A DNA stretch of 64,000 nucleotides from positions 17,531,291 through 17,595,290 of the forward strand of contig NC_056536.1 of the NCBI RefSeq assembly GCF_910596095.1, in the 5' to 3' direction. Numbering within the stretch: position 1 is the first letter of the stretch; every line of letters begins with the position of its first letter. This document shows positions 9,309-54,058 of the stretch, one piece after another. The notes below the pieces were generated by a model that worked only from the letters and a program-made list of their open reading frames with translations, was not told the DNA's origin and did no database searches. This DNA is from Thunnus maccoyii (lineage: Eukaryota; Chordata; Actinopteri; Scombriformes; Scombridae). A program made the translations under genes and the position numbers.

Positions 9309-9322
9309 TGAACTTTTCACCT
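9309..9322 (-). promoter_or_regulatory. DR2 repeat, candidate retinoic acid response element
   Basis: The + strand reads TGAACT-TT-TCACCT. On the minus strand this is AGGTGA-AA-AGTTCA, two RGKTSA half-sites spaced by two, in the hoxc5a intron. DR2 is bound by RAR/RXR at several Hox enhancers. Evidence is motif only. Confidence 0.4.
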
Positions 9323-10080
9323 CTAAAAGATTTGAATAGGCGTACTCCTTTTCCATGCCTTGGAACACTGAGCACATTTTGCTGCAAATAGAAGCTTCTT
9401 CTGTTTTGTGTTCGTCTATATGCAAACATCCAGGAGCACACAGCAGGGATGTTTAAAATATTATTACATCCAATAGGTCAGGCCTGTTGCTTTCCTTAGC
9501 ACGCCTGAGCACGAGCAAGGCTTTAAATAGGAAAATATATATCTGGAAAACAGCAGTTTGCATTTTCTAATCCCATTTTATTTTTAGATTTTACACGTTT
9601 GTTTTCCTCCCACGATATTGTGCTCCTGTGCAGTGGTGTTAGGCCGAGGCCAGTGTTTACAGAGAGGCCAACACATTATCTGTAGCTATGTCATTTTACA
9701 TTTTACAAAAGGATTTCTTTAAGTGACAGTCGTGTATTTTTTTATGTTTTAGTTTTAGCAGCCTCTTCATTCAAACTGACTTTATTTATTAAATATAGCT
9801 TAACAATCCTTATCAGTCTGACATACATTTTTATTACATAAATCCACAGTAAGTAATATCAGGTTAAATGAGGTTATATAAAGATATTTGATCTTTTAAA
9901 TAAGGGTTGAATACATAAATTAATAGATTTGTGCTTGTAATGCTTACTTTTTATGGATATGGATATTGTTATAGATAACCAAGCTTTTTTTAAATTGAAT
10001 ATTATTATTATTAGCTTTTTATTATATTTATTTACCACTTCAATACTGCTGAAAGCTAACTGATTTTAATACCACTTCAG

Positions 10081-10289
10081 AATCGGAGGGTAAGCGGTCC
10101 AGGACCAGTTACACCCGCTACCAGACTCTGGAGCTGGAGAAAGAGTTTCACTTCAACCGGTACCTGAGCCGCCGCAGGCGCATAGAGATCGCCCACAGCC
10201 TGTGTCTAAACGAGAGGCAGATCAAAATCTGGTTCCAGAACAGACGAATGAAGTGGAAGAAGGACTCAAAGATCAAAGTGAAGGAATAA
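10081..10289 (+). CDS. hoxc5a: hoxc5a exon 2 (homeodomain)
   Basis: Begins after ACTTCAG; the first two bases complete Glu160. The homeodomain spans residues 163-222 ([54 protein letters not shown]). The LNERQ and KKDSK tail are typical of Hox5. The tail is short (KIKVKE), as in other Hox5 proteins, and stops at TAA 10287-10289. The 3'UTR probably runs to AATAAA at 11116-11121, and a consensus DR5 repeat lies just 65 bases after the stop. Confidence 0.97.
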
Positions 10290-10353
10290 AAGTGCACTGA
10301 TAGGGGCGCAGCACGTTTTTCAGCCCCACACTGCACAGTGCTGGAGTGCCGCC

Positions 10354-10370
10354 TGACCTCCGGATGAACT
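10354..10370 (-). promoter_or_regulatory. DR5 repeat, candidate retinoic acid response element 3' of hoxc5a
   Basis: TGACCT-CCGGA-TGAACT on the + strand, that is AGTTCA-N5-AGGTCA on the minus strand: two exact RGKTSA half-sites at the classical RAR/RXR spacing. Its place just 3' of the Hox5 gene corresponds to the distal-element (DE) RARE between Hoxb5 and Hoxb4 in mammals. It would lie in the hoxc5a 3'UTR if that ends at 11.1 kb. Confidence 0.55.
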
Positions 10371-11115
10371 GCTAGGAGCAATGACATCATGACACCGCTC
10401 TGTGCGCTTCATCACCAATTATGTGTCACTTGCTGCAGTTTGGGACCTAATGTATTGAATATCACTCACTTTGATCAATCGGTTTACATTTCTAAATTAA
10501 TTTGCTGTCCATGCGATGATAACCTCACTTTGCTGCACGGAGGGGACAAGAGGTTGAGGGGAGCTGGGGTCCTTCAAACTGCAAGTATTTGGCCTGCAGT
10601 GCACTGGAAGGCTGCACAATGCTACTAATAATCTATGTTTTTTAATTAGGATAACAGTAGTGGAGGCAGAGCGATAGCCTGCATCATTTCAAGCTCTTTA
10701 TCATCATCATATGATAAAACTGTTAGGTCAACAAATCAAATAAAGGCAACTGCTTTGGAAATCATAATGATTATGAGCTGTCCTATAACCATCAGTTAAA
10801 TAGGTTCCCAGCGGTAAAAACTACTTTCTATTTCTTTTAAAAATTTACTCCCTAATATGTTGCAGTGCAAACAAAATAGGATGTGTGATGTGTTCAGTGA
10901 GCAATGTATTTGTGAGTGGATTTCTTTGAAGGCACCATCCATGTTGTCTGTTTTACCCTTGTGAAGCTAAATCATTGTGTATAATTCAGCGACTGTATGT
11001 GATAATATTGTAAATGTGCAATGAAGCCATTTCTCCTCCCCTTTGTAAACTTAAGGTGCCTGGTTTACACAAGGCCTAGAATAACTGATAGATGGCTTAT
11101 TTGTTGATTGTAACC

Positions 11116-11121
11116 AATAAA
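11116..11121 (+). terminator. hoxc5a: Polyadenylation signal, probably hoxc5a
   Basis: AATAAA about 830 bases past the hoxc5a stop. Confidence 0.45.
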
Positions 11122-11932
11122 GTCTCATCATTAAAAATTAAGGGAATTTCCTATTGTCAACATGCGCACTTCTGTTATTTTGTTCCCCCCCCTGATATCA
11201 GGAGTTGGTGGCGGAATCACACAGCTGACTGATATATTTACTGAATTAAACGATTTGGAAATTGTGACACATTTAGTCCTGATCACGTTTTTAGTCCGAC
11301 TCGGGATCCCGCAGCATTTCATCAGATGACAAACGCGCTCTGAAGTTTAAGGCCCTCATAAAACTTTATTGCCCCTTTTCCACCACTCACCCACAGGCAC
11401 ACTCCGTTTCCTGTTTTGTCAGGGAAGGAAGGGGAGACACTAGCCTGTGATAACACTCGCCCACAACACAACATGGATGCACAACTTTGGTTTCCTGTGG
11501 CCGCAGACTGATGCGCCATCACTGCTGAGGCCATATGGCCACTTTATGGTCTCGCCCTGCTCTTTCAACCTGGCACCATTACACTGTAGTTAAAACAAAA
11601 AATATCTGCCAGTACAGAGGACATAAAATCATGCCAGTTGCTGGATGTCTGTATCTAGAAGACGCTTTAGTAGAAGTATCACTATGACGCACTATAGCCC
11701 AAGGTTATGAGGTAATTTCTCTACAGCACTAGTTAAGAAAATAAAAATCAACTCACCTCTCAAACTAATAGCTTCAGATAAAACTTCCTTCACGGTTAGA
11801 GAACCGCTCAGAGCAGCGTCCACTTTTCTCTGCGCTCTCTTAGGCCTATAACCTATAACGTGGACAATGTATTGAATCCCTTTTTGTGTGTCTTTCTTTT
11901 AGGGTATTTTAAAGTTTACAAGGTTACATATG

Positions 11933-12183
11933 CCAATTGCCCCAAGCAGGGCCTGTGAATGGTGCATAGGAAGCACGTGGTGTCATTTAAGTGGGTTTTA
12001 TGGCCTGGAAGAGCTGACAAACCTTCGATATATACACATCATATATAATCTTAACTGTCCGGAATCGCAGCTGCTGGCTTCCCCTTATCTGAGGAAGAAA
12101 GGGCTTTGTGGCAGTGAGGATGCAGTACCTTTCTCTGGACTCTGTAGTCGGGTGGTGCGGAGGACTGCATGGGAGCTGCTGCA
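11933..12183 (+). promoter_or_regulatory. Candidate upstream promoter and non-coding first exon (mir-10 / hoxc4a long transcript)
   Basis: The stretch has CCAAT (11933-11937), CACGTG (11974-11979), TTTTATGG close downstream, an ATATATAC-like AT element, then GC-richer DNA ending in a perfect splice donor GCA/GTAAGT (donor at 12184). CACGTGGT followed by TTTATGG is also the layout of the hoxc4a promoter. In mouse, a distal Hoxd4 promoter upstream of mir-10b drives spliced transcripts across the microRNA; this could be the HoxC equivalent. It is inference, with no acceptor partner proven. Confidence 0.3.
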
Positions 12184-12784
12184 GTAAGTTGCTTTTAACT
12201 TCGCCTACAGGCCTGCGACCGTGCCGTTATTTCACCGTGAGCCGTTTTAAAAAAAACATAGTTTGATTTCTATACGTGTGACTTTGAATGCATGGTTGCT
12301 AAATTGATTTACTTCAAAATTAACTGTGTTTTAATGATAGTGAATGTGTGTTTCATAATTAAAATGACAATTATGTTTATAAAACAATCGGAAAAATGCG
12401 CATTTTGAGATATTTATAGCTTATTTGGTGTTGTATAATAGTTCGCCAGAAACGAGAATACACGGAGATACCGATCGAGGTTTTGGGGTTTTCAAGCAGG
12501 ATTATTTTTACGCAGCATCATCCTTATATCACAGCCAGATTTTAATATGAGGAAATACAAGCAAAAAGCAGGATGTTTTTATAGCCTCGCAACAGATTTG
12601 AGATACAGTAGCAGTCCGATTGTTTCAACAGCTTGCTTTGCATGTTTTGCTTGTCAGAGAATAGAAAAGAAAAAAAAATTTTGAAGTAAAGGTGACTGAG
12701 GAAAATGAAAAGTCAGCCAGAAGTATCAAAAATCATCTGGCGTGCAGCCTCATTATCCACCCCACCCTCCCTTCCTCCCTCCCT

Positions 12785-12821
<37 letters not shown>

Positions 12822-13788: not shown

Positions 13789-13846
13789 CCAATAGGGGGC
13801 ACTGTGTAACACGCTCCTGTGAGGGTGACACACTGTGGGGGCAGTG
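13789..13846 (+). promoter_or_regulatory. CTCF-like motif pair between hoxc5a and hoxc4a
   Basis: CCAATAGGGGGCACT at 13789-13803 matches the CTCF core except for one position. A weaker copy, CACTGTGGGGGCAGTG, lies at 13831-13846 in the same orientation. The site at 390 has the opposite orientation, so the sites flanking hoxc6a-hoxc5a point away from each other. Motif evidence only. Confidence 0.45.
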
Positions 13847-14343: not shown

Positions 14344-14360
14344 AGGTCATTTCCGGGTGA
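14344..14360 (+). promoter_or_regulatory. DR5 repeat, candidate retinoic acid response element
   Basis: AGGTCA-TTTCC-GGGTGA, two exact RGKTSA half-sites spaced by five, midway in the hoxc5a-hoxc4a spacer. Confidence 0.45.
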
Positions 14361-16223: not shown

Positions 16224-16240
16224 GGGTGAAACGCGGGTCA
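16224..16240 (+). promoter_or_regulatory. DR5 repeat, candidate retinoic acid response element upstream of mir-10
   Basis: GGGTGA-AACGC-GGGTCA, two exact RGKTSA half-sites spaced by five, about 1 kb upstream of the mir-10 hairpin. Confidence 0.45.
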
Positions 16241-17207
16241 GGCTGTCTAACTAATATTAAAATGCGTGCGCCAGGGCGCGCGGGGCGAGAGTGGAGTATG
16301 TGGTGTGCGTGCAGCTCTTTCAGACAGGTTTGGTGCACGAAAAACATCACATATTTAGATGAGAATATACACCAAATGAACACGAGTAAGATTTTTGTGA
16401 CTATGTTCTCGTTAGTTCATTGTTGTTGGCTTAGGATGCTTTGTTCTTTCAGTAAAAAAAAAAAAAATCTATTAAATTGATACACAGGACAGAATGCACG
16501 CGGAGAAATATGTAGATTGAGACGTTTTTTGACAGTGTTTGAAGTCCCATGTGCATTTCCACTGTAATCAATTCCATTGATTCACAATCTGAGCATGTTT
16601 GCTGTTTTTAATAACCCCCCGAAACAGGTCACATGTCTGATATTGCATTTTTCATCCGAGGCTTTTCTCATTAGCTTCCAGGGTGGCAGGAAGAAAGGTT
16701 ACCGAGCGGTCAGTATGGTAATAGCAAGCAGAAGAAATGGTTGGGAACAATAGAAACTTATTTTTCATCTGTGCTGTCACGCCGTCCCTTTGTATCCTCC
16801 GTGTTTGTGACTGAATATTCATATAGGAGCTACCTCAAAGGCAGAGGTTGAATGTTGAGAAAAGAGACCCTCTTTATCCTTTTTGCACCCGACGTGTTTG
16901 TGTGTGAATGTGTTCAGGCATATTTTTGCGAATATTTTTTTGGGGGGAGAAAAGTAGTATATTCTGTCATTTGTAAATGTATTAAGAGCAGATGTGATTT
17001 GTGTTTGTGGCTCCAGTAACCCTGACAAGCAGCATCCGCTTTGGCGCGCGCTTTGTGCAGTATTTCTACTCTATTGCAGCTTTAATATGTTGTTATGACA
17101 TTATACTCTTGAAATGCATGTTTGTCCTATTTCAGACATGAAAAACCTGCTTGCGTATGTGTTTGCCTGAGAGATCACCTTTGCAGCTTCTAACCTAAAA
17201 CACATTA

Positions 17208-17291
17208 GTTGTCTATATGTACCCTGTAGAACCGAATTTGTGTGGAGTACAAACAATCGCAAATACGTCTCTACAGGAATACATGGGCAAC
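17208..17291 (+). ncRNA. mir10b: mir-10 microRNA hairpin (miR-10b type)
   Basis: Positions 17220-17242 are identical to the vertebrate miR-10b-5p sequence (begins TACCCTGTAGAACCG; the A after GTAGA separates it from miR-10a, which has T). The 3' arm (about 17260-17283, containing CTCTACAGGAATACAT) pairs with it through CTGTAG/CTACAG and ATGTA/TACAT, and the base is closed by GTTG/CAAC. miR-10 genes sit upstream of Hox4 in vertebrate clusters, and this one is 2.9 kb upstream of the hoxc4a start on the same strand. In other clusters it is co-expressed with Hox4 genes and represses nearby Hox mRNAs such as Hox1 and Hox3. The exact copy number suffix in any species is not knowable here. Confidence 0.96.
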
Positions 17292-17807: not shown

Positions 17808-17808
<1 letters not shown>

Positions 17809-20149: not shown

Positions 20150-20585
20150 ATGATCATGAGCTCGTATTTGATGGAGTCTAACTACATTGATCCGAAATTT
20201 CCTCCATGCGAGGAATATTCGCAAAATAACTACATCCCTGAGCATAGTCCAGAATATTACAGCCGCGCAAGGGACTCTGGCTACCAGCATCACCATCAGG
20301 AGTTATATCCTCCGCGGGCGAGCTACCAAGACCGCCAGTATAACTGTGCAAGCATCCCTGAACCTGACACGCCAAGGGGACATGGAATACCCCATTCTGC
20401 GCACCTGCTGATAGGGAAAGGGCAACCTGCTTCATGTGAAACCCCACAGTTGTCCATGTCCCCCGCCACCCCACCGGCCGCAGCCTCCGCCTGCAACCAA
20501 GCTACCCCGGAGCATCCAAACAGCACAGCCTCTTCCAAGCAGCCCGTGGTGTACCCGTGGATGAAGAAAATTCACGTCAGCACTG
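20150..20585 (+). CDS. hoxc4a: hoxc4a exon 1 (N-terminus and hexapeptide)
   Basis: First exon of HoxC4. The start MIMSSYLMESNYIDPKFPPC is the Hox4 signature and matches human HOXC4 with one change, so the ATG at 20150 is preferred over the internal Met. Next come the acidic EEYSQNNYIPEHSPEYY block, a His/Gln stretch, a Pro/Ala-rich region and the hexapeptide VYPWMKKIHVST (YPWM at 135-138). The exon ends ACTG/GTAGGC in phase 1. Joined to 21098-21459 it gives 265 residues, near human HOXC4 (264). The 512-bp intron holds a homeodomain-site cluster near 20745-20776. Confidence 0.97.
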
Positions 20586-20745
20586 GTAGGCAACTTGTGT
20601 GTTTATGTTCCCTGCACTCCTCATGCTCCTCTCTCCCTTTCCCTCCCTTTATCAGTCCCTCTGACTCCCATCTCGTTGCCAGCCCCTGCTCCGATAGCAG
20701 GGAAGCCTTTGAAATGGCACAATTGAGGCGGATTTACGACTCGGC

Positions 20746-20776
20746 ATTGGTAATTACACCCACCATAAATTTTATA
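20746..20776. promoter_or_regulatory. hoxc4a: Intronic homeodomain-site cluster in hoxc4a (HB1-like)
   Basis: GGTAATTAC is followed by CATAAAT-TTTATAG (20764-20776), a near-palindrome like those in the hoxc6a and hoxc5a introns, with one arm changed from TTTATG to TTTATA. Clusters of homeodomain sites (HB1 elements) are described in the introns of several Hox genes. Assignment rests on motif and position. Confidence 0.45.
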
Positions 20777-21097
20777 GCCGAGGTATACTCAGGGCAGCCG
20801 TATCACCATGTGGCTTCTGCTGTTATGTATTGCGCGATAGAGAGAGGGGGAGAAATGAATAAGAAAAAAAACTGAGCTTTGTAATCTTGCATTAATAATT
20901 TAGCTCATAGTTGGATGTGAGTGTCCTCTCATTACGCTGAGAAGTTCTTAACTTCCCATTTAAATTTCTCAAACAGCTAAACATTCATATCCAATAAATC
21001 TTTCTAGCCATATCTCAGTTGAGGCCATTCTTGTTTACCCCTCCTTTCCTCCCTTCTCTGTCTCTCCCTTTCTCTCCACTTCTCCCTTTTTTTCCAG

Positions 21098-21459
21098 TGA
21101 ACCAGGGTTACAATGGGACGGAGCCCAAGCGGTCTAGGACAGCATACACCCGGCAGCAAGTCTTAGAATTGGAGAAGGAATTCCACTATAACCGGTATTT
21201 AACTCGGCGGAGGCGCATCGAGATCGCCCACACCCTGGTTCTCTCCGAGCGACAGATTAAAATCTGGTTTCAAAACCGCAGGATGAAATGGAAAAAGGAT
21301 CACAGGCTCCCGAACACCAAAGTGAGATCCTCCTCCTCCTCCTCCGGGTCCAACACAAGCTCAGCAGCCGGCGCTGTTGCCGCTGCCTCGGCCACTAACA
21401 CTGGTGCCTCCGACGAACTCACCGGAGCGCAACATGGCGAGGATATTACCAGGTTATAA
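21098..21459 (+). CDS. hoxc4a: hoxc4a exon 2 (homeodomain)
   Basis: Starts after a long pyrimidine tract and TTTCCAG; TG completes Val146. The homeodomain covers residues 155-214 ([60 protein letters not shown]). [18 protein letters not shown] and [10 protein letters not shown] are Hox4 hallmarks. The tail has a Ser run, an Ala-rich stretch and the EDITRL ending shared with HOXC4, stopping at TAA 21457-21459. AATAAA at 22045-22050 is the likely polyadenylation signal. Confidence 0.97.
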
Positions 21460-23515: not shown

Positions 23516-26289
23516 GGACCAAAGCGGTTAAAATTTGCTTTTGGATGGGGGCTTTATAAAGGCACTAGAATAGTGTTGAGACGGCGCTGAAAAATGAATC
23601 CAGAAGCCTTTATGTTGCCGGACAGATTAGAGAAATTAATGTGCTCGCCACAGTCGCAGCATCCCTCCAATCCCTTTCTCGGCCCTGTCGCCTCCATGTC
23701 GCGAGGCTGAAAAGGTACTTTATTGAAGTTTGGGGGCGAAGTGGGAGAAGGCCGAGTTCACCTCGAGGACACATTTTCTGTCCCATTAGGCTCATTTCAG
23801 TCTGGATGGCCGACCTCTCCAACCCTGTGACCTGACTCCTTCTCTATACGTGTACCTTCTGTGTGCGCCCTCGCTGGTCCCCCCTTGGCCTCGGCTTTCT
23901 TTGTGGATTTTTCTACGTTGTGCCTATAGAGAGGCCTGCGGCGGGGCATCACTGAATGTGTTGCTCCTTTTGTTAATCAGAGTGACCCAGGACAGTGTTG
24001 AACTCTCGGACAGTCCTTCAGATCCAGGAGACCTGCAGGACTTGCAAACATGCGCCCTTCTTAACAGCGTCTTGTGATTTGATCTGTCCAAACTCAACTG
24101 GCAAAGATTCGTGTCAACTTTCCCACGAGTTACTGAAGTGACAACATAAATTGCAATATTCTGACAGATTATGAAGCGTTATTCTGATTATGTGTGTTGA
24201 TTAGATTTTACAAACTTGTCCGGGAAAATAAGAACTACTTTACATATATATTGTACAGGCACTTTGGGGTTTTATACTATTGTAACTGGTACAATTAAAT
24301 GGTTGTTAAAATTAGAACCAAAGTATAAAAATGTCCTATTTTCCAGGGATCAGTTACGTTCCTTAAAGTCTCCAAAAAAAAAAAACACAGAAGGCAGTAA
24401 AAATAGTTGGTGCGGTCACATGACTTCTGTGTGACTTAAGAGAGCAACTGGCCTCAGGTCAGCACTTCCGTTCAAAAGGAAGCTGCCAGTTTTAGGTGTT
24501 TTCTGACAGTACTGGGACAGTTTGGTCGCTGTGATTAGTTAATGGACAGGGACCTTTAAGCTTGTAGTCAGGAAAACCTTGCAAACTTTCCACAGAGACT
24601 TCACTAAAACTTTCATTTTATACACAAGGTAATTCTCCCTCATGTGGGACAGAATTTAACCCAAATAGCGTATTGATGACAAATTGATTCTTGCTGCAGA
24701 ATGCTCCAAAAATCATTAAGATTATGTATATATAAAGATAACTATTGAAGATGTTACAAACCTTTAGATATGTCTTCAATGAAATAGTTTTCTGTTATTT
24801 GGGAAATCTTATATTATCGCAAGCAACCTTAACTTGATACTTATTTTAACCACTTTGCAATAAGTTTGGTGTTTCGTTTGTGGACTGTAGAATACGTGAC
24901 AGCATGTGTTCACAGCTGACACTGACAGTGATCTCAGTGTCTGTCATTTGTGTGTGATAATTCAGCTTCCTCCTCATATATCCGAGGCTACAGGTGCAGC
25001 AGCTCCAATTGCAGTTAACAATGACGGGGTGTCCCTTTTTGTTTGAGCTCTTGTGACTGAAGCTTTGCGTAAAGTACAACACGAAGCATAATTAGCGGAC
25101 ATTTTCTTGACTTGTTGACTTTGCTTTATCAGGGATTTAACTAAAACGCCTATATAAGGCCTCACTGGATTTATTATGGGAATAAACAAGACTTGGTTTG
25201 AAATGATTGTTTAAAAAGCTCATGCAGTTAAGCAGTCATGAATCAGGCACTGTCACGTGTTCTGTTAATTAACTTTGGACTTATGCGCAGTTTTTTCTCC
25301 ACAACGGAAACTTTTCTTAATATTTACACTTATATTTATCATCATCGTATTTAAGGATTTAAAAAAAAAGTGCGGAACGTATACTTAACACGTTTACCTT
25401 TCTGTACTCTCATAAGCAAGCCAATAGTTCATTAAATCCATTAACTTCAAAGTTATATAATCTTACCTGTCAGGAGATCAAAATAAATGTAAAAAAAATA
25501 ACAATAACTTCCCTGACTAATGGCGTCATCCTTTATGAATGAATGCCAATCTTTAAAGTTTAGAATAAACTCTCTTGATTTTCATTTTCACGCAGCTCTT
25601 TGCTTTCAGCTGAATCTGTAGAGTATCTCTGGGAAGGCGGTAGTTATTCTTAACCTCACCACCTTGCAGGAATATGGTGTATTTTATGTGTTTGAAGTTC
25701 AGTTGTTTAAATTCCTCAGCACTTACTCAGCCCTAACTGGTTTCTTTTCTGACTTGCGACTGTTGAATCACACATGATCTTCAGCTCACATTGCACCGCT
25801 GCGGGCTCGCTGTGATTTATGAGCACCTCAGGCGAGGGACCCTCTCTTGGAAGATGTAAAAACTTTACACAAACAGCCACCGAAATGTTTGAACAAGAGC
25901 AACTACGAAACAAAAATCACCAGCTGTTCTGACGGTGGCGTTAGTTTATGGCCTGTTTTTTTTTTTATTATGGCGCACCAGGTTACACATTTTTTCCACT
26001 CGTCTCAGGTGAGTGTCTTCTTCAACCACTTTGGTTTGTAATGAAGGGTCCGGGGCTGGAGCATTGTTATGGTGTAGTGTGTTTAAACGGCAGCCATGGC
26101 AGCTGCATAAAGGCTGAGAGTTGAAACAGGGGTCACGCTGCTATTTTCCAGAGACAGAGAGGCTCTCTCGCATTGACCAGCAGTGGGTGTGTCATAAATC
26201 CGTAAATCTCTCTCCCATCCGTTCACTCTAGGGAGCAGATGCACCATGTCTTTTCTTTGTGTGTGTGTGCGTCTCTCTCTCTCTCTCAC

Positions 26290-26371: not shown

Positions 26372-28059
26372 ATAGAGAGGCAGAGTTAAATGAATTTACA
26401 TAAAACTAGATTTTAAAACTCCATCAGACATGTTAAAATGATTTACTGTCAGTGCTGGCAAACATTTCAAGCAGCTTGGATCAACACCCTGATACCCCAC
26501 TGCAGACTTCAACATCACATCACACAGGAAATGATGGCCCGGGTAAACTTGCCCGCAATACTTTATGTCATCATAACGCCTCGCTGAGAAATATTTCATC
26601 AGCCTATTTGCTGCATCGTTGAGGACCTTAGAAATTACAGTCATTTTCCTCCATTCAGTGTGTCACCAGGGGCTCAGACAGTCACTAGATTGAGTTATGA
26701 TTATCTTATTCACTTTTCATTAGCAAAAGTGATCTGAATATGGGATCCAGAGACTATAGAGCCACAATTATGTATAGGTTAAGTGAAAATGCGCTTTTTA
26801 TTTGATTTGTTCTCTGAAAATGATTCTCCGGTGTGTTTATGCGGACACCAGTTGCTTTTCCATCACCGTTATCGTCCACTTTGAGCACTTTTTTTTAAAC
26901 ATATCGCCATATGTTGTTATATTATTGAATATTAAAGTCGCAATGCAAAACCAAAATGTAAAAACAAAAAAGTTCACATTTTTAAAACATAGGATTGAAA
27001 CCTGCAATCTCTCCCAAACTGACTGAAAGGCCTTTAAATACAATTATAGCTACACGTCTTTATATTAATATTTAACGATTCTGTTTTATATCAGCTGTAA
27101 AAAGCAGTAAAACTATTTATTAGTTATTTTTCAGGCTTTAATATTCATATACATTCAGCTGTCAACACTTATTGTAAATCATGTACATTACATATTACAT
27201 AAAAATATTTCAAAAACCGTGTTTGTTTTATGCTGCTGAATTATTTTATTTTAATGCTATATATATCATGCAAAAACATATTTCTCCTGATTAAAAAAAC
27301 ACTTAAAGTCATCTCCAAATTGTATCCTTTCGGATGGCATTTCATTGGCTCAGAGCTGCAGGATTTATGTTTGCACTCTGCACAGACAGTTCAGGATTTA
27401 CAGAGAGCTGTGGCCCAAATTAATACTCTATGTTAATGCACACGCTTATGCAAAAGTCAGGACTTGTTTGGGAAATTGACAATGTGTGTCTTTTCCTCAC
27501 TTATGAAGTGCAGTCTGCAAACTCTAGTCCTTTCATTTCACTCTGCATTGTTTACAGCAACATAGAGCACCGGGCCCATAAATCTTCCCCTTGCTCTGCC
27601 AAGACAGCGCCATTTGTATGCACCGTTTTAACCGACAGCATCCTCTGCCCATTAACGTCTTCTCCCCAGCTCTCTCTCAGTCTCCTCTTATCTGCCCAGC
27701 TCTTGTCCCCTGGAAATACATTAACTGATCCGTGCATCAGTTGAGCTCTGTAAACTAGTGAAGTTTGGGGAATATATAATGTACAGAAAAATGAAAATAA
27801 AAATATAAGAATTGTGTTGCATTTCCTAGATTTCCTCCTCCTCCTGCCCGCATGTTGCAGATGTTTCCCATTTCCTCAGTACCGGTTTCTCTGCAAGTTA
27901 TTGATATGAAAAATAAAAGTTTATCGACGATTTCCTTGGTTGTTTGTGTCAGCAGGCGAGAGAGCGCAGAAGGTAAGGAGGAATTGGAAAAGGGTTGACA
28001 CCCAGAGCGACCGGCGCGCTTTTGTGTGAGAGAGAAAAATGATTTATTGCCACTGAGGC

Positions 28060-28076
28060 GGTTCAAACAGAGTTCA
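28060..28076 (+). promoter_or_regulatory. DR5 repeat, candidate retinoic acid response element between hoxc4a and hoxc3a
   Basis: GGTTCA-AACAG-AGTTCA. Both half-sites are the same pair as in the well-studied RAR-beta2 promoter element (GGTTCA-N5-AGTTCA). It lies 6.6 kb past hoxc4a and 2.5 kb before hoxc3a, comparable in place to the neural RARE enhancers 3' of Hoxb4 and Hoxd4. Confidence 0.6.
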
Positions 28077-30535: not shown

Positions 30536-30887
30536 ATGGACCCCCAACAGTCTGCCCTCCCACTGCAGCTGCATGGCAACACTTTTGCTATGAGCTCTGG
30601 ACAAGTGCCAAAACTAAGCGCGGGATACAATGAAGGAGGAGGAGGTGGTGGTGATGGAGGAGGCCAAGAAGCAGAACTTAATCAGCAAAACATGACCTCC
30701 TCTGCTCATGTCAGTTCCAGGTTGAACCCAGATGAACAGTTTCAGTGCCCACTGGAGCCTCTGGTTCACTGCCGTGCCAAGGGCGAGCTGGACGTCAAGA
30801 GCAGGAGCTGCAGTCTACTCACCATCTGCCGCTCAGGAGTAATTTTTCCCTGGATGAATCCACGGACAACTGACTCAGAACAATCTG
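30536..30887 (+). CDS. hoxc3a: hoxc3a exon 1 (divergent N-terminus, FPWM hexapeptide)
   Basis: First exon of a paralog-group-3 Hox factor, a gene absent from mammalian HoxC. The Hox3 hexapeptide IFPWM lies at residues 103-107, and the exon ends TCTG/GTAATG in phase 1. The N-terminus is atypical: it starts MDPQQSALPLQLHGN and contains a Gly/Asp run, whereas Hox3 proteins normally begin with an MQK(A/T)-type motif, which I could not find in the 300 bases upstream. The chosen ATG (context GTCCATGG) is the first in frame; an ATG at 30523 is out of frame. An upstream exon cannot be excluded. Spliced length is 301 residues, shorter than Hoxa3/b3/d3 (over 400). Confidence 0.85.
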
Positions 30888-32095
30888 GTAATGCTGGTTT
30901 TTGTTTTGTCATAAACTAAATAACTTTTTAAAGTTGTAACTAAGTGTCCAAGATACTGTTGACTGATGTGTGAATCCATGAATCCAATTTTGAATGAATG
31001 TTTAACTCAAACACTGACATCTGACCTTAATGTTGTGTAGCACTTAGTCAATTACTTCTTGTTACATGAAGACACTGAATGCATGTGCTATAAAAATGCA
31101 CTGCCCATATGTTTGTCATACTTGATCATATTTCCAAAGTCTGTCTGTCACCTGCATTATTTCTCACACACAAAAGTACACTCATCAGATGCACAGGCTC
31201 TATATCCTTTATTAGGTTTAAATAAGTATGTGGATGAGTGTGAATGTTGCAGCACAGTTAACCAAATGTCAGTGTCATGTGTATAGCTGTTTGTTCCTCC
31301 AGCTCTTTACTTGAAGTGATATTCAAAACAGAGAAGCTGCAGGATGAGCCGTACAAAAACACCTTGTAAACTACACTGTTGCCTCTGAGGATCTTTAAAT
31401 GTAGATTTTTTAAACTTAATCAGAAAATATCATCTTTTTTGATTTCATAAAATCTATGATTCCTGCTCTAATAGATCTCTTCTAATGCTTGATATTTTCA
31501 CAGCTATACAAAACAAGCTAGCATATACACTGCGGATGCTGCAGTCTCTCAGTCTGGTGGAGTGCTGTTAAGATGTGCGGTTCTCTCTCTGAGGTCACTA
31601 CAGGCCTTATTAAGTGTCCATTAACCCCTGCGTGTTATATTGTTATCAACAGGGCCCTGGTATCCCTCATATACATGTCAAATGGAATCTCTAATGGTGG
31701 TTATTTTCAGTGGTGGTCCCAAGGTACCTTTTAAGTGACTGAGATGGGGATTTGACAGGTCTGCTTCCGTGTGTAGCTGTGATTAATGTGGCCTGTCAGG
31801 CAGCCGTAGTGGCGTCAGATGTTTCCCCCAGACTGTTTCTTCGGGAGCTAACTTTCCCCCTGAACACATGACACAGTAGACAGCCAGTCTTGTATAGTGT
31901 CTCAAGCATGACTGAATACACAAGAAGAGCTGAGGGCTCTACTTTGTCTCAGTTTGATTGGCTGAGGAATAACATGGGTCTTACTAGCACTTGAAGTCCT
32001 CCATTTGGAGGTTATACATTACACAAAAGACTTGTTAGGTATGTGACACTTGCTTTTAATGCCCTCTCATCTTTATGTGCTTTCTCCTGCATCAG

Positions 32096-32649
32096 TCAGT
32101 GGCGGTGTGCAGGCTGGTCACGTGGGAGGAGGCGGAGGCAGGCACAGTGTCAGAAGGGAGAGAACAGCCTTCACTAACAGCCAGCTGCTGGAGCTGGAGA
32201 AGGAGTTCCACTTCAGCCCTTACCTGTGCCGCCCTCGGAGGCTGGAGATGGCGGCAGGGCTGCAGCTCACCGATCGCCAGATCAAGATCTGGTTTCAGAA
32301 CCGCAGGATGAGGTACAAAAAGGAGCACAAGCATGGGAAATTGGTGAATCCGTCCCGGTGGTCTCCTTGCAACCCCTCCTCCAGCTCAAGCTCATGTGCA
32401 GACCACTGGAGGCTCCCAGGTGCTTTTGTTGTCAGAACTTCCCCCTCCTCTGATGTGCACTTCATGGATTATGCTCCTATGTCTTCCTCTCCTTTTGATT
32501 CTCCTTGTCAGGCCAGCAGTGGTCAGTGTATCCACCCTGCAGAGCTGCCCCATCTGAACTGCATACTTCCATCTGTTGCAAATGGTCTGCCACCCTCCTG
32601 TACAGGCACAGATAGTCATCACCATGCTGGCATTTCAAACTGGTCCTAG
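32096..32649 (+). CDS. hoxc3a: hoxc3a exon 2 (divergent Hox3 homeodomain)
   Basis: Starts after CTGCATCAG; TC completes Val118. The homeodomain is at residues 136-195. It keeps the group-3 marks YLCRPRR, EMA and [10 protein letters not shown] with Y56, and all core residues (L16, F20, W48, F49, N51, R53), but has changes I do not expect in Hox3: E4, F8, S23-P24 instead of N-R, A36-G37, and R55 for K. The tail is Ser/Pro-rich, lacks the long conserved Hox3 C-terminus, and stops at TAG 32647-32649. No frameshift or premature stop is present, so the gene looks intact but fast-evolving. The 1.2-kb intron shows nothing notable. Confidence 0.92.
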
Positions 32650-37624: not shown

Positions 37625-37974
37625 TAGAGCTGCAATGATTGGTTGATTAATCGATTAGTCAACAATAGCAAATTAATTGGCAACTATGTTGGTAATTGAA
37701 TAATTGTTTCTGCCATTTCTCAAGCAAATATACTCTGGTTTCAGTTTCTCAGATGTGAGGACTTCATCATATGTCACAGTAAAATTAAAAATCTTTAGGT
37801 TTTGGACTGTTGGTCATACAAAACAAATAAATTGAAGACATCACTGTGGGCTCTGAGAAATTGTGAATGCCATTTTTTTTTTTTTTACAATTATTTAACA
37901 TTTTATGGATTAAATGATTAATTGAGAAAAAAATTGACAGATAAATCAATAATGAAAATAATTATTGCAGTGAG
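37625..37974 (+). mobile_element. Decayed MITE (hAT-like, common in teleost genomes)
   Basis: Begins TAGAGCTGCAATGATT with ATTAATCGATTAGTC, and ends AATAATTATTGCAGTGA, so the termini are inverted versions of one another (GAGCTGCAA.. / ..TTGCAGTGA). The interior contains GAAGACATCA and CAAGCAAATA. The AATCGATTAGT-rich ends are those of a very abundant non-autonomous fish element. It has no coding capacity. A second copy in the same orientation is at 61487-61860. No clear target duplication was found. Confidence 0.75.
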
Positions 37975-42592: not shown

Positions 42593-42722
42593 GGGACTGC
42601 TGTTTCTCCTCTGAGGAATGTCCCCACGGTCGTCCAGCCGCCTGACCATGCGTTACTGGATGCATGAGAGGCCGGGCATGAAGTGAGACCCCGTCCAATG
42701 ATTATGCAGGGAAGAGGTGATA

Positions 42723-43254
42723 ATGACTTCCCATCAAGAGTTAACGGCCGAAGGGGAGAGTAGCCCTCTGTTCACGGGCTGCTGCCGAGCAAAAGAGGTC
42801 ATAAACCTGGACCTGGGCGGCAGGACTCATCCTGAACTCGGCAGTCGTGAGGAGGGAGAACTGGAGGTGGAAGTTGCCTCAGGATTTAATTCTCCGCATC
42901 CCCGTTATTTAACTCTCTCCAACTGTTTGACTCTGTGCACCTCTTCGGACAGCCCTCCTCCTCCTCCTCCACCGTGTGAGACTCTGGAGGGCTTCTCCAC
43001 ACCGGCCTGCCCCCACTCGTCCCGTGTCCCCTGGCGGTGTAAGGAGCAGGGGCAGGGCTCTCCAGGACGCGGATACTGCGCGTCAAATAACATCGAGGCA
43101 AGACACTCCGGTTTTGGGTCACTTGCAGAGCAAATTCAACTCTATTCTCACGGTGGCGCCGAGATTCACAACTCGGACTGTAACGTAGCAGAAATGGATG
43201 AAAGGAGTAAAACTTTTGAGTGGATGAAAGTGAAGAGGAGTCAGCATCGGGCGG
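42723..43254 (+). CDS. hoxc1a: hoxc1a exon 1 (N-terminus and FEWM hexapeptide)
   Basis: First exon of a group-1 Hox factor, another member absent from mammalian HoxC. I start at the ATG 42723 (MTSHQELTAEG); the open frame begins at an upstream GTG with a stop at 42699. The N-terminus is Glu/Gly-rich, has a run of seven prolines, and ends with TFEWMKVKR (hexapeptide W at residue 167). This is the group-1 form of the hexapeptide, with Glu where Hoxa1/b1 have Asp. The donor GCGG/GTAAGT is phase 1. Spliced length is 312 residues. Confidence 0.93.
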
Positions 43255-46200
43255 GTAAGTTTGAGCTCGAGATGAGCGATAAAGTCATTTTAAGAGGAGA
43301 GTATGTACAGAATAGATGTGTTCGTGATTAAATGTGGTCTTTAGATAACTTTCATTCATTGTTGGAAAAAGTTTGGTCGAAGTTTTCTCCACAAGCTGGA
43401 AAAAAAGAGAGGAAAAAAGCTGACGTGTTTTGTGCGTCACCGTGCACAGTTTCCTCCGTCACCAACAAACAAAAATGTAAAATTATTCTCCCACTTTTTT
43501 TTTTTTTTAGTGCAGATGAAAACGTCTGAGAGGCAGATATAGCTGTTTCCACGACGCCACATTTGAATATGCACATGAGGACTCGGTTACCATTTCCTTA
43601 ACGGTTCCATGTTAATGTCAGACTGTTATTTCATGTTTTTGCTCCACCTACTGTTAAAAGCAGGATTCAGATTGTACACAGAGGGAAGGTGGAGTACAGT
43701 ATAAGGCCTGCTTAGCCTCAGTGTATATTCAACCCAGAAAATGATCAATTATTTACCCTTGCCCTTACTAACCAGTAGCCTTTGAATAATGCATCAGACC
43801 ACTGCCTGTCGAGACTCACAGGAAGTTGAGTAAAACTTACTCCTGTAAGCCTGAGAGCTCCCTGAGTATTGATTAGTTGTCTGTTTGTAATGAAAGCCCT
43901 TGTGTATTGATTTCAGTTTGCAGCACCTTTACATGTGTCCACCTTTTTAACATAATTGCTGTCACAGATCATCATTTCTCTGACTGATGAGTCCTGGGCA
44001 GAGAGCCCACAGAAGAATACACATCCCAGGCTTTAAAAAAATACCAATAGCCTACTAATGTGAAAAATGCCTATCAATCCTCAAATTTATGTGAGTTATA
44101 GTATCTCGTATAGATCCCTCATTTGATCAATAATGTCAGTTGACTGACTGACCACTGTACTTGGGCTGGGTTTCATAAATTTTACATGGAGGAAGATTTA
44201 CAACAATGGTGGTCCAGTCTCTTTTTTTTTCACAGCACAATCTCTGTCTGCTGTAAGCGTGCTGCTGACCCAAATGTTCAGTGACCAAAGCTGCAGGTTG
44301 GTCGTAATCACTGAGGGTTTGTGATAAAAGGCCTGAGTTTTTCTGTGAGGGGTGCAGTAAACACAAACCTTCACAAAATTCAGATTAGTAGGTAAAATGA
44401 TGCAGCCAGTCTGCACAAAAGGTGTCACAGACACATTTGATTTGACTACAGTGTTGTTGGATGCAACGAAACTGCAATTTATAGCTTTTAATTGCCTACT
44501 TGCATGTTCAAAATCCAGATTGGTGGGTAAAATTGGTGCACGTTCAAACAGCTTGTGAAACATAATTTCTGATGATGCCAGTGTAAGAGAGGGAACACAT
44601 TTAATCTGACTTGGAGTCACAAATATTTAAATTTTACATGATGCAACAAGCACAAACTGACAAAAAAAAAAATCAATTTAGTGGTTAATGATGAGTCTTC
44701 ACACACCTGGATGAACATTCCTCTGATGAGAGAAGCAAAAGGTGACACGAACACCTTTTGATTTGTCATAATATTCATAAAACACATTAGCCACTCATCA
44801 GATCCAAATCTGTGCACTTCAGAAAGCCATTTGCTTGCACCCACCCACGCAGACACAGAGACATCTCCTCAGCACTGTTAGTATCTTTGTAACCTCTTTC
44901 TGTATCTCTCTGAAGGGGATCATATGTAGGAGTAACTCATTAGTGCTACTGTGTAACTTGTAAAAGAGTCATTAGTGAAAGTACGCTTTCCTCTGGAGCT
45001 TGTATTGGTTTTGGCACGGAACAAAGTCCCGCGTATTCTTCCATGTTGAAAGGCCTCCACAGACCTGCTGTAACCTGATCTCCTGGCTTAGTGTATATAC
45101 TCCCAGTGCGTCATTCTTCAATTATGCTTTGACAGCACCTGAATTACTGTGGGCTGGATGCCCAGATGACTGAGGCAATGTGTATCGATCTATCCCTTTT
45201 CTTCTTCCCTCTCCTTGGCTTGGAAGGCCCTTCCATTCCCTTTGCTATAGCTGGCTATTTTTAAGCATGCAAGTCATTTCTCAAATATTTAGTTTGATTC
45301 TTTTATGCCTTCTGGTGGGCATCAATTCTATTATCTTTGGAGCCATTAATCAGAATGTGCATGTGATTTGCACTCCTGAAAGCTGGAGTTCTTAATTACG
45401 TACAGTTCCTCTGTATTGGTTCTTCATATGCACTTCTCTCTAATTCTCAGCCTTGGTTACCTTGACATTCATTTTCTTAAAACACAGATGTCGACATTTA
45501 TCCTATAACTGACCTTTCCATCTGCCGTGCTTTTCCTAGTGGCTAGAGGCCTGTTAACCTTCCTCTCCGTGAGTTGTGGTGTGAGACATTGCACTACACC
45601 TGGCACACAGACTCCATTACACAGCAGCAGCAGCAGCACATTTTCTCGGAGGCAAAGATACACACTGACGACTGCCACAGTGTCAGCAATGAAAAAAATC
45701 AAGATATAGTTGCAGTTCCTGTCATTCATTGCACATAAGTAGCACAGATGATACTTTAATGTGTAACCCAGAAACCTCAGAGGAAAAAAATGGAGACATT
45801 TGTCATTAACGCAGTGTTTGAAAGGATCTGTAAACTGTTAAACTGTCATTGACACAGAAAGGCCTAAAGGGAAATTATTAATGATTCTGATGAATACAGT
45901 TAATGGACTGTAAACGCTACAAAGTTGTTTTGAATCGCCAAACAGTCCTACTTTTTCTACATATCTGCAACACACAGCAGCACGTTCTTTTTTTCTACGA
46001 TTCAGTGAACTTGTCCAGGACACACCAACACCTCTGCAACATATATAGCAATCCAGTCCAGCCGTGCCATTAATGTGAAAATCTTCCAGAGTCTGAGATG
46101 TATGTCAACTCACATCTCTGTTAATTTCCCAGACTGTGATGTGGGCTTGGGATTTTGTCTAGTGTTGCAGAGATGTTTTACAGCACCACAAGATTTTTGC

Positions 46201-46700
46201 AATGTGCCTATAGGCTATTGCTAAATTTGATAGCTGTTTGAAATACATCTTTGTTACATAGACAGAAAAATGGTTCCCAGGGTGAAGACTTTAAATCAAG
46301 AAACTGGCTCGGGGCCAAATTTTATAAATCAGTTTTTTTGGAAATAATTTTATTGAAGGTTTGGATTTACAGGTTTACAGGTTGAAGAAATTCAACTCAT
46401 TTCTTCAGTATCAAACAAACCTGTAAATGTGTATTCATTTATATTCCTCATTAACACACAACTTAACAGGCCATCATATAATAAATAGTTGACTATGTAA
46501 TTTGTACAAATTAGAAGATTTAACTACGTATGACTGACGTTGATCAAAGTTTATTATATCAGAAATGTGCTCTGGGATAATTTTTCATCCTATTTCCTGG
46601 ATATGGGCGTGGATAATTTTATTCAGAAGGGTTTTGTGCTTCTTTTGTGATTAACCTCATTGATCTTGCTGACGACTGTTTTCATGTCCTCTGTTCCTAG
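43255..46700 (+). other. hoxc1a: hoxc1a intron
   Basis: At 3.4 kb it is long for a Hox intron and by far the longest in this window. It contains an imperfect direct repeat of about 137 bp period (44360-44620), a 64-bp compound inverted repeat (46365-46428) and AT-rich DNA. Open frames on either strand show no recognisable protein. Confidence 0.8.
46365..46428. repeat. Compound inverted repeat (two nested stems)
   Basis: The outer arms ATTTACAGGTTT (46365-46376) and AAACCTGTAAAT (46417-46428) pair over 12 bp. The inner arms TGAAGAAAT (46383-46391) and ATTTCTTCA (46399-46407) pair over 9 bp around a 7-base loop. It lies in the hoxc1a intron, 273 bp before exon 2. It could be an RNA hairpin or a MITE remnant. 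Confidence 0.6.
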
Positions 46701-47107
46701 CCAGGATGCACATGACCTGTGGGTTCAGTATCGTTGGCTCGGGCCTCGGTGCTGTGGAGGCTGGAAGCGGCAGCATCTGCGCGGACGTCCATCCCACGTT
46801 GAACGGGGCCCCGAGGACCAGCTTCAGCACCAAACAGCTGACCGAGCTGGAGAAGGAGTTCCACTTCAACAAGTACCTGACGCGGGCCAGGCGGGTGGAG
46901 GTCGCCAGCACCCTGCAGCTCAGCGAGACGCAGGTGAAAGTTTGGTTTCAGAACAGACGCATGAAGCAGAAGAAATTACAGAGAGACGGGCTGCTCTCAG
47001 ACCCGGGGCCCGCGGCTGCGCACTCCCACGCCGACGCTTTGGACACCTGCCCCTCTCCTGGACTGTCCTCGCCAAAAAAAAAAAAACACCTGCCTCTGAA
47101 CTTCTGA
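46701..47107 (+). CDS. hoxc1a: hoxc1a exon 2 (homeodomain)
   Basis: Starts after TCTGTTCCTAG; CC completes Ala178. The homeodomain is at residues 212-271: [64 protein letters not shown] and RRMKQKK are group-1 marks and W48/N51/R53 are intact. The hexapeptide-homeodomain linker (about 43 residues, [13 protein letters not shown]-rich) is roughly twice that of HOXB1. The tail is short, with a [10 protein letters not shown] end encoded by a poly-A run (47076-47087), and stops at TGA 47105-47107. AATAAA at 48129-48134 or 48165-48170 may end the transcript. Confidence 0.94.
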
Positions 47108-48663: not shown

Positions 48664-48685
48664 TTCACCCCTCACCTCTTGACCT
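48664..48685 (-). promoter_or_regulatory. Triple half-site array, two overlapping DR2 repeats 3' of hoxc1a
   Basis: Three half-sites on the minus strand, each spaced by two: AGGTCA (48680-48685), AGGTGA (48672-48677) and GGTGAA (48664-48669). The first pair is an exact DR2; the third half-site is one base off the RGKTSA consensus as written. The array lies 1.56 kb past the hoxc1a stop, comparable to the retinoid enhancers 3' of Hoxa1 and Hoxb1. Confidence 0.5.
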
Positions 48686-51188: not shown

Positions 51189-51244
51189 CTCACACACACA
51201 CACGCACACACACACACACACCCACACACATACACACACACATA
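51189..51244. repeat. (CA)n microsatellite
   Basis: CA repeats with CGCA, CCCA and CATA interruptions. Confidence 0.95.
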
Positions 51245-53230
51245 CAAATCCATACATAACAAATTCTGACAGAGCTACGCTGAACACAACATGCACACCA
51301 ATCCAGTCCTTGCCTCTCCTCTCCTGCTCCACTCCAGGGAGCAGATGTTTGAGGACAGTTTACAGCCTCAGCGAATTTCTGTGTACAAAGCAAACAGCAG
51401 CACTCAGCACTTCTGGCTGCAAAGGGAAATTTGCTCTTGAAGGAGGGGGGAGGGGAGGCCTTTGAGTCAATGTAAGGTATCATGAGGATGGGAGGCAAGG
51501 GGGAAAAAAGAGGGAGAAGGGGTGCACGCAGAGGTGAAAGTATGTCAAGGTTGCGAGTCTGTTGCACGGGAGTATTCCCCCTGTTTCCTGAGACATCTGG
51601 TGCTGTGTGCGTGAGCAGTGTGGGACAGCATCATGTACAGTACATACAGTATCTCCCTGTGGCATCATGCAACATCAATAAAATCAACCAAGGTGTCCCT
51701 GCTACATATCTGATTGTGTGGAGTCTCTCTGACCTCTCCCGTGCATCTCTGTCTGCTCTCTAGTTGCCCTTTCAAAAGTTGCAGACAAGCATAAAGTGAG
51801 GAGGAAAAAAAGGGAAAACAATGCAATGAGCCTTTACAGAGTTTGCTGATACTGCATCTGAGACATCAGCTATAACATAGAACCAGCTATGCTAATGATG
51901 CCATTGATATAATCCACTGATTTAATGGGACTATTCCTGTGGTGGTATGCTGCCTATGTGCACACTTCAATATGTATCCTAAAGAAAAATAGCAATATTA
52001 CTCAAAAAAAAGATGACTGACAGGATTTTACTTATATCTTATGGAATTAAGTATGTCATTTTTTAAAAAAAGACTTAAAGAAATACATGTTTTTTGTCTT
52101 TCTTTTCCCTCCCAAAATGTTCACAGTGCAGCTTTACCACATATGCTTGTCAAGATGCTGCAAGATGTCTCATGTAAACAAGCTCAAACATGCTCACACA
52201 CTCTGATGTCCAAACATGTGTGCAAGTACACACATTTTGACCTCTCATCAGTGTATTATAATCCCTAAACAAACCATCATAAATGAGCCCTGCGATGCTT
52301 ATTTGTCTGAACGAAGGCAACCCCCTCCTCCCCTGCCCCTGGGGTTAGGTTGCCATAGTGACAGATTCGTAGACATATGGAGAGAGAGGAGAAGGGGAGC
52401 TGGGTTGAAGGGGTGGGGCTGCCGGGGTGAGGTGGAGGGGGAACAGAGGAGAAAGGGATGGGCACCCGTTTGAGGACGTTGGCTCTCTGTCTTTCAGATG
52501 TGTCTTGCGTGTTTCATCCGTCAATCAGCCATCCGTGTCAGTCTGTGCTCAGTGAGGGAACAGTTCATGAACTTTTCTCAATCAAGTCTCTGTCAGGCGC
52601 CATCTTGGCTGTATTTCAAGGGGGGAAAGGATTGATTCTCATGCCGTCTTCACAGCCCAAACAACACAGTGCAGTGCAGTGGCGCCATGGGAAAATAATT
52701 CAGTGAAAATGTGTATTATTAAATTGATTTGGAAGGGTGTGTTCACATTTTGCAATCTCTGGCCATTTCGTTGTTTACACTAATGACTAATCAGCATTAG
52801 AAATACAAACATACAGATGTTTTTGCTTCTCACTAATTAGATTCAGATGATGTAATCAACCTTTCAGCCAACCTGAGGACAGCTTGACAATGGACAGAGA
52901 GAGAGAGAGAGATGAAGAGAGTGAAAGGGAGAGAGAGTGAGAGGAAAGGGGAGGTGTTGGGGGGGTGAAGTGAAGCAGCCATCAGGATTGGCCTTGCTGC
53001 TATAAAAACACATTTTTTCATCAACCATTTTATGCAAAAAGGGAAGACCAGGTGCTCAATCAAACCTCACGCCTACTGTTTTATTTTTCATCTTCACACC
53101 TCCCAGAGCTTCCCTGCACAAACCTTCTGTGTGCCTTCCCTCTACCCTCGCACCATTCTTCTCCTCCTCTTCCCTCTCTACGTGTCATTCGTCTTCCCTC
53201 CTGCCTCTCCACTGCCTGCTCTCCAACTGA

Positions 53231-53312
53231 TATGAGAGAGTGACCCTCAGGCCCTCAGGGGTCAAGTGATACAAGGTCATTGGCAGGTCATCTCTGCTGA
53301 CTGGCTGACCTC
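53231..53312. promoter_or_regulatory. Nuclear-receptor half-site cluster with a perfect DR5
   Basis: AGGTCA-TTGGC-AGGTCA at 53274-53290 is an ideal DR5. Within 80 bp there are also TGACCC (53231), GGGTCA (53259-53264) and TGACCT (about 53306). It is followed by a TAAT-rich, non-repetitive stretch. It lies 6.2 kb 3' of hoxc1a. A DR5 RARE a few kilobases 3' of Hoxa1 drives its early retinoid response in mouse. Confidence 0.6.
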
Positions 53313-54044
53313 TAAAAGGACTTCTGGAAGGAGCCAATCAGGTCTTGCTCCTTCCCCCCTAAGGCGGATCCCCCCTCCCCAGCTCATCAGCAGCCTGTGT
53401 CACATGACCATGGCGAGGCGTCAGAGGGAGGATGATTAATGATGCTTTTAGTACCTGTTTAGAATGAAGCTGTCCACACCGCACTGTAATTACCCACTCC
53501 CAGGCGGCAGCTGCCCAACATAATTGCTTTTTGTTTGTTGACCTGGTTTATTGCAGAGAAAGATGGCTTTGGCTGGGTAAGATGTTGCTATGTACAGTAT
53601 ACGGAGGTGAGGATGTATGTATGTTAAAAATTTGGGTGACAGTGTGTGTTTGAGATCCATGTTAGCTATGACGGTGTGAGCGAGAAGATGTTTGCCTTAG
53701 CTGTGTGTGCACCAACGAATAGCCTGGTGTGCACATATAGGAGAAATACAAGTGACATAAGAGAGAGAGAGCAGTGCTTCATCTCTATAGTTCATATCCG
53801 TGTCTTAAAACAACAACAAAGTACATATGTTATTATGGTATGTAGCCATGAAGCCACTGAGTCATACAACCCTCCCACATAAAGTCAAAGACAGCCACAG
53901 ACCTAATGTGTAAATTCACTGCATACCGCTAAAACCCAAAAGTATACAGCATGCACAGTTAAGGAAGGGTATGTTCCGTCATGCATTATTTATGTCAACA
54001 TCTCAAAAGCAGGGGCGCTGTGTTGCTCTGAAAATTCAAAACTA

Positions 54045-54058
54045 AGTTCAGAAGGTCA
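54045..54058 (+). promoter_or_regulatory. DR2 repeat, candidate retinoic acid response element
   Basis: AGTTCA-GA-AGGTCA, two exact half-sites spaced by two, 755 bp beyond the DR5 cluster and just before a candidate conserved stretch (54180-54450). Confidence 0.45.

Follow-up and report, generated by a model that had tools for sequence, protein, structure and literature searches.

Genes and direct repeats of the window

The stretch of DNA analysed here, called the window, comprises 64,000 nucleotides of the Thunnus maccoyii genome (C4:17531291-17595290; genome of 782 Mb) and carries the anterior HoxCa genes, together with a set of direct repeats (DRs) of the half-site RGKTSA that are considered as candidate retinoic acid response elements (RAREs). 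From left to right, the genes are hoxc6a, hoxc5a, mir-10, hoxc4a, hoxc3a and hoxc1a, all on the plus strand; their names were inferred from homeodomains, hexapeptides and gene order and not taken from named records, and the other clusters and their genes were likewise named from homeodomain similarity, mir-10 places and order. Repeats are designated by the number of bases between the half-sites (e.g., DR5, DR2), and two of the DR5s, each taken together with the sequence beside it, are treated as composite elements (modules 1 and 2). The features, in order of position, are as follows.

8409..10289, plus strand: hoxc5a (inferred name), with YPWM in exon 1 at 8853 and WFQNRR in the homeobox exon at 10230
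9298..9322, minus strand: DR5+DR2 of three half-sites in the hoxc5a intron; DR5 9298-9314 and DR2 9309-9322, with the middle half-site in common
10354..10370, minus strand: DR5 AGTTCATCCGGAGGTCA, just past the hoxc5a stop codon
14344..14360, plus strand: DR5 AGGTCATTTCCGGGTGA, between hoxc5a and mir-10
16224..16264, plus strand: module 1, consisting of DR5 GGGTGAAACGCGGGTCA (16224-16240) and a 3' flank containing GTCTAACTAATATTAAAATG
17213..17287, plus strand: mir-10 family microRNA (Rfam RF00104, 55.8 bits)
20150..21459, plus strand: hoxc4a (inferred name)
26119..26135, plus strand: DR5 AGTTGAAACAGGGGTCA, between hoxc4a and hoxc3a
28040..28076, plus strand: module 2, consisting of TGATTTAT (28040-28047) and DR5 GGTTCAAACAGAGTTCA (28060-28076), between hoxc4a and hoxc3a
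30536..32649, plus strand: hoxc3a (inferred name)
42717..47107, plus strand: hoxc1a (inferred name), with the FEWMKVKR exon at 43215 and the homeobox exon near 46943
48665..48685, minus strand: DR1+DR2 of three half-sites, about 1.7 kb 3' of the hoxc1a homeobox
53274..53290, plus strand: DR5 AGGTCATTGGCAGGTCA, 3' of hoxc1a
54045..54058, plus strand: DR2 AGTTCAGAAGGTCA, 3' of hoxc1a
58193..58209, plus strand: DR5 GGGTCATCGCGAGGTCA, 3' of hoxc1a

The original prediction for this stretch had named, by eye, five DR5s and three DR2s, all of which are exact RGKTSA repeats at the positions given for them; the DR5s were undercounted, three more being present at 9298 (minus strand), 26119 and 58193 (both plus strand). 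The repeats had been described as lying between anterior Hox genes, which applies to only part of them, because 9298/9309 and 10354 fall in the intron and just beyond the stop codon of hoxc5a, respectively, and the elements at 48665, 53274, 54045 and 58193 are all 3' of hoxc1a. Their reported absence to the left of hoxc5a is borne out, in that neither a DR5 nor a DR2 occurs left of 9298 in the window or in the adjoining 20 kb on its 5' side. The resulting contrast, 0 DR5s in the 29 kb 5' of 9298 versus 8 in 55 kb, is weak evidence for an anterior limit of the DR5s.

Across spacings 0 to 12, the RGKTSA repeats in the window number 0, 1, 3, 0, 0, 8, 2, 0, 1, 3, 2, 0 and 0, respectively. The eight DR5s compare with an expectation of 0.4-1.0 across the estimates made (0.62 from half-site density), and the other 30 spacings of the range 0-30 have a mean of 1.23, with DR14 and DR28 next highest at four each. 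A count of eight was reached by none of 300 shuffled sequences at each of Markov orders 1, 3 and 5 and by none of 300 local 2-kb shuffles (0 of 1200 in total), and when the columns of the half-site motif are permuted (720 arrangements), no order but the true one attains it. Genome-wide, 12,407 DR5s were found, or 1.02 per 64 kb (10,285 for the reversed-motif control), and against this density the window has a Poisson P of 1.1e-5. With the stricter half-site RGKTCA, five DR5s and one DR2 are retained. The excess of DR5s is therefore firm, and two sequence features of a DR5 RARE are present, namely two RGKTCA-type half-sites in direct orientation with a 5-bp spacer and an excess of spacing 5 over other spacings.

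For DR2, the strong over-representation claimed by the original prediction is not upheld. The three DR2s have P = 0.025 on half-site density and P = 0.07 against the genome density (11,639 DR2s), and the same number is reached by 3-10 of 300 shuffles and by 32 of 720 permuted motifs; in the window, DR9 also occurs three times, and DR14 and DR28 exceed it. The DR2 excess is borderline. Chance or base composition could account for this DR2 count, and it has in its favour that the half-sites are short and degenerate and that DR5s are found in their thousands in the genome; however, it is already contradicted for DR5 by the shuffles and the permuted motifs, and the other Hox clusters favour the same spacings, so that chance as the source of the repeats as a whole is exceedingly improbable.

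Hox DNA from elsewhere in this genome was examined over 281 kb: 150 kb of HoxBa, 50 kb of HoxBb, 24 kb of HoxAa with another 10 kb from its 3' end, 18 kb of HoxDa, 9 kb of HoxDb and, from HoxCa, the 20 kb that adjoin the window on its 5' side. HoxAb and most posterior regions fall outside this sample. Among 61 spacings, the three most frequent in this sample are DR5 (16), DR2 (11) and DR1 (10), the rest having a mean of 3.0; together with the window, 24 DR5s are available for comparison. COUP-TF/NR2F, HNF4 and PPAR are nuclear receptors that use the same half-site, and the repeats might mainly be sites for these, as would fit the enrichment of DR1 and DR2 alongside DR5 in the other Hox DNA and the DR1+DR2 composition of the element at 48665. 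This alternative is nonetheless improbable, because it is spacing 5, the one classically associated with RAR/RXR, that shows the largest excess (DR5, DR2 and DR1 being the RAR/RXR spacings according to a passage of PMC3534614), and because zebrafish hoxc1a responds to retinoic acid (RA) and to BMS493 (PMC8608873).

Composite elements upstream of Hox4 and Hox3

Module 1 is placed between hoxc5a and hoxc4a, about 1 kb upstream of mir-10, and its DR5 is directly followed by GTCTAAC-N-AATATTAAAATG. Counterparts are found upstream of Hox4 in HoxBa (3066900), HoxAa (20591900, on the minus strand, as are the genes there) and HoxDa (18627589), in each of which a DR5 of the form RGGTGAA-NNNN-RGGTCA is succeeded by a similar flank with GTCT, AC, ATA and AAATG in register, and the orientation relative to the genes is identical in all copies. 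The flanks remain similar when the DR5 is masked: in each of the six pairs of copies, no more than 1 of 200 random placements scores as high. An ungapped scan with the 45 nt of window sequence alone that start at 16224 gives its best matches exactly at the DR5s of HoxDa (36/45), HoxBa (33/45) and HoxAa (31/45), the next match scoring 26; with the 28-nt flank alone, HoxDa (22) and HoxBa (21) again come first and HoxAa is not singled out. In the genome, a pattern of half-site plus flank occurs at 18 places when up to three mismatches are allowed (17 for the reversed control), the four Hox places having 0-1 mismatches and the other 14 having three; such genome search counts may be lower bounds. 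Core, flank, position and orientation are thus held in common by HoxAa, HoxBa, HoxCa and HoxDa. The HoxDa copy presumably differs by one base from the core of the mammalian Hoxd4 RARE.

Two further observations concern the surroundings of module 1 and its counterparts. Window positions 11954-12063 are non-coding and have 71% identity to HoxDa C11:18626418-18626525, 1.1 kb upstream of the HoxDa copy; lying in the interval from hoxc5a to mir-10, they are possibly a further element conserved between paralogous clusters. A HoxDb-like remnant at C14:6646632-6670473 has a Hox4-type homeobox, mir-10 and another homeobox, and no DR5 occurs within the 9 kb of it that were read.

Counterparts of module 2 precede Hox3 in HoxBa (3113881), HoxBb (5563819) and HoxAa (20579424), all with the same orientation to the genes; the HoxBb copy is located between mir-10 and the Hox3 gene, and no Hox4 was found there. 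In all four copies, TGATTTA precedes the DR5 by 13-22 bases, and TGATTTAT, which contains this motif in the window, resembles a HOX-PBX or CDX site. A scan for TGATTTA plus DR5 among the 24 DR5s of the fetched Hox DNA returned only these four copies, and a genome search for the composite TGATTTA-N8-30-GGTTCARNNASAGTTCA gave exactly four matches, all of them module 2 copies, with none for the reversed control. By comparison, GGTTCAANNAGAGTTCA alone has 10 matches genome-wide, of which three are module 2 copies. Core, TGATTTA, position and orientation are accordingly common to HoxAa, HoxBa, HoxBb and HoxCa. The flanks of the other copies align with one another to differing degrees (0 of 200 controls reaching the score for HoxAa-HoxBa, 4 for HoxBb-HoxBa and 24 for HoxAa-HoxBb); since the flank of the window copy hardly aligns, the evidence for its membership is the core, the TGATTTA, where the element lies and which way it points, and the case is weaker than that for module 1. 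The DR5 between d4 and d3 in HoxDa has the opposite orientation and is of a different type.

A 17-mer identical to that at 28060 exists at C18:3310969, where it has no upstream TGATTTA and is located inside an array of half-sites, and it was not counted as a copy of module 2. The array belongs to a stretch about 150 kb 3' of hoxb1a (C18:3306001-3316000) with eight DR5s in 10 kb and three DR1s; some of these DR5s form two rows of four half-sites, starting at 3310947 and at 3312359, in which the spacing is exactly that of DR5. This stretch possibly corresponds, in fish, to the RAR sites in the skap1 intron; within C18:3306001-3316000, no skap1 coding sequence was evident and the published primers had no match. 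The RARE of the skap1 intron, which is 3' of HoxB, is described as DR5-like, conserved between fish and mammals and active in an RA-responsive reporter, and it has been proposed to act on hoxbb genes (PMC8608873); unlike the elements of the window, it is situated outside the Hox cluster.

Similar DR5 cores in several clusters might also be produced by a repeat family or by recent gene conversion. In the genome searches, however, each composite was confined to four Hox places (for module 1, at 0-1 mismatch), these places are syntenic, and no longer BLAST match surrounds the modules at E 1e-4, so that a spread of this kind is very remote. At the same threshold, the matches between the window and the other clusters consist of coding exons, mir-10, simple or dispersed repeats and a few short non-coding stretches, and none is found at the DR5s, which means that conservation is confined to tens of bases.

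The remaining repeats

Secure flank homology in other clusters was found for none of the remaining six of the eight window DR5s. The best flank scores of 9298/9309, 10354, 26119, 53274 and 54045 are reached by at least 12 of 400 controls, and the weak flank matches of 14344 and 58193 (2-7 of 400 controls) lead to places without positional sense or a sensible alignment. Homology of 10354 to similar cores 3' of Hox5 in HoxAa (20595626) and HoxBa (3065909) was considered and rejected, as the flanks are no better than controls (89-150 of 200) and the orientation differs. DR5s 3' of Hox1 are also present in HoxAa, HoxBa and HoxBb, and HoxCa has two, the flanks of which do not align with those of the other clusters.

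The element at 48665 resembles in its gapped flank a DR2 of HoxBb (C20:5540882, 17.7 kb 3' of hoxb1b), the score being reached by 0 of 400 controls; this was one of 171 comparisons, 36 of which were listed, and the similarity is suggestive. At C20:5540421-5542494, 16-18 kb 3' of hoxb1b, there are in all three DR2s and a DR5 within about 2 kb.

It could consequently be argued that only the two DR5s with cross-cluster counterparts work as RAREs and that most of the others, the DR2s included, are chance or decayed repeats, as the lack of secure flank homology and the borderline DR2 count would lead one to expect. Against this, six DR5s are left after the two are subtracted, with about one expected, and RAR sites of mouse and zebrafish that are co-located but cannot be aligned have been termed probable orthologues (PMC8608873). 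This alternative deserves to be taken seriously, but it is unlikely.

A probable distributed retinoid-response system in HoxCa

Given the repeats themselves, the surplus of DR5s and the recurrence of two DR5s at corresponding places in other clusters, there is a good probability that the DR5s of the window, with some of the DR2s, are RAREs of a distributed retinoid-response system, two of which were inherited from a single ancestral cluster. Whether receptors bind the elements, which genes they serve, in which direction they act and how old they are go beyond what was observed and are inferred. The original prediction of such a system gains from the enrichment of RAR/RXR spacings, from the agreement of the other Hox DNA, from the two DR5s with cross-cluster counterparts and from zebrafish hoxc1a, one of 13 genes that RA induces, that BMS493 represses and to which a RAR peak in chromatin immunoprecipitation is assigned (PMC8608873); it is restrained by the DR2 count, by the six DR5s without secure conserved flanks and by the weaker response of mouse HoxC.

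A number of points weigh against this interpretation. Beyond the DR2s and the six unaligned DR5s, the patterns for both modules were composed after their copies had been inspected. Neither HoxBb nor the 9 kb read of HoxDb yielded a copy of module 1, and HoxDa yielded none of module 2. For module 2, alignment of the window copy's flank is weak with HoxAa (score reached by 5 of 200 controls) and fails with HoxBa (92) and HoxBb (80); the best matches of this flank are to other DR5s, and in ungapped scans the partners of 28060 do not stand out. The RAR peaks in zebrafish were assigned within 250 kb of the transcription start site, so that the hoxc1a peak may be anywhere within that range (PMC8608873), and the response of hoxc1a to RA and BMS493 is that of the gene and not of a given element. 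In mouse embryonic stem cells, moreover, the RA response of HoxC is slower and weaker than that of HoxA and HoxB (PMC4510006).

If the DR5s operate as proposed, RAR/RXR dimers on them would repress the genes in the absence of ligand and activate them as RA rises, with the anterior expression limits of hoxc1a, hoxc3a, hoxc4a, mir-10 and hoxc5a as the outcome. Module 1 would probably serve hoxc4a, mir-10 and hoxc5a and correspond, in HoxC, to the DE/B4U-type elements of HoxB, and module 2 would probably serve hoxc3a and hoxc4a, the neighbouring TGATTTA allowing for HOX-PBX or CDX-type input. The occurrence of module 1 in clusters A, B, C and D and of module 2 in A, B and C bears on age: the retinoid-response layout is read, from sequence comparison, as predating the vertebrate cluster duplications and as being of the same kind as DE, B4U and ENE of mouse HoxB. 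If HoxCa does have both ancient modules, the logic of shared enhancers would predate the four clusters. The bases conserved next to the DR5 of module 1, outside the RARE, also suggest a partner factor or a promoter element.

A more specific proposal, which is tentative and falls somewhat short of an even chance, is that the single cluster before duplication had two composite RAREs with fixed partners, that both were kept in HoxC, and that HoxCa is under retinoid control through shared enhancers in the manner of HoxA and HoxB. As parts of this proposal, and held with the same reserve, GTCTAAC-N-AATATTAAAATG might be the site of an obligate partner or the core promoter of a Hox4/mir-10 transcript, TGATTTA might be a site of HOX-PBX/CDX type, and the non-RARE flank might form a part of the regulatory grammar that is as yet undescribed.

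In mouse HoxB, DE and B4U are located about 8 kb and 4 kb upstream of Hoxb4, respectively, and ENE about 3 kb downstream (PMC5414248); ENE, 3' of Hoxb4, regulates both Hoxb4 and Hoxb3, and RARE mutants of HoxB have been made in vivo (PMC10233718). Like these elements, which are grouped around Hoxb4 and mir-10a, the predicted RAREs of HoxCa flank Hox4 and mir-10. In the fish HoxBa, the copy of module 1 precedes the start of hoxb4a by about 8 kb, as DE precedes Hoxb4, and module 2, like ENE, is between Hox4 and Hox3; however, the set described here belongs to HoxCa, the correspondences of DE with module 1 and of ENE with module 2 are matches by position only, and the HoxBa copy of module 2 is about 36 kb from the hoxb4a homeobox, in contrast to the 3 kb of ENE. 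For Hoxd4, the position of the mammalian RARE is uncertain, as a mouse Hoxd4 RARE is placed within a 3' neural enhancer (PMC3185001). In the manner of the 3' RAREs of Hoxa1 and Hoxb1 (DR5 and DR2), of which the DR2 1 kb 3' of zebrafish hoxb1a is conserved in mouse (PMC2148072), HoxCa has DR5, DR2 and DR1 repeats 3' of Hox1; unlike them, these have no secure flank homology, the match of 48665 to the HoxBb DR2 being suggestive only.

The functional RAREs listed in a passage of PMC4510006 are by Hoxd4, Hoxb4, Hoxa4, Hoxb5, Hoxa1 and Hoxb1, with none in HoxC among those, and a description of DR5s in HoxC was not found in the passages of open-licence papers that were consulted. What is possibly new to the literature is the particular make-up of the two composites and the fact that each is nearly unique in the genome. 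A paper by Mainguy et al. (2003, Trends in Genetics) reportedly claims, in its title, a position-dependent organisation of RAREs in vertebrate Hox clusters, and the principle so stated, as far as a title can convey it, is the pattern seen in HoxCa; in light of this title, the remark of the original prediction that such a system is little described for HoxCa is uncertain. A 2010 study is also said to have treated conserved elements around all four Hox4 genes.

Elsewhere in the window, positions 37625-37970 and 61498-61871 have about 62-72% identity to several places in HoxBb (C20:5535760-5568392) and look like an old dispersed repeat.

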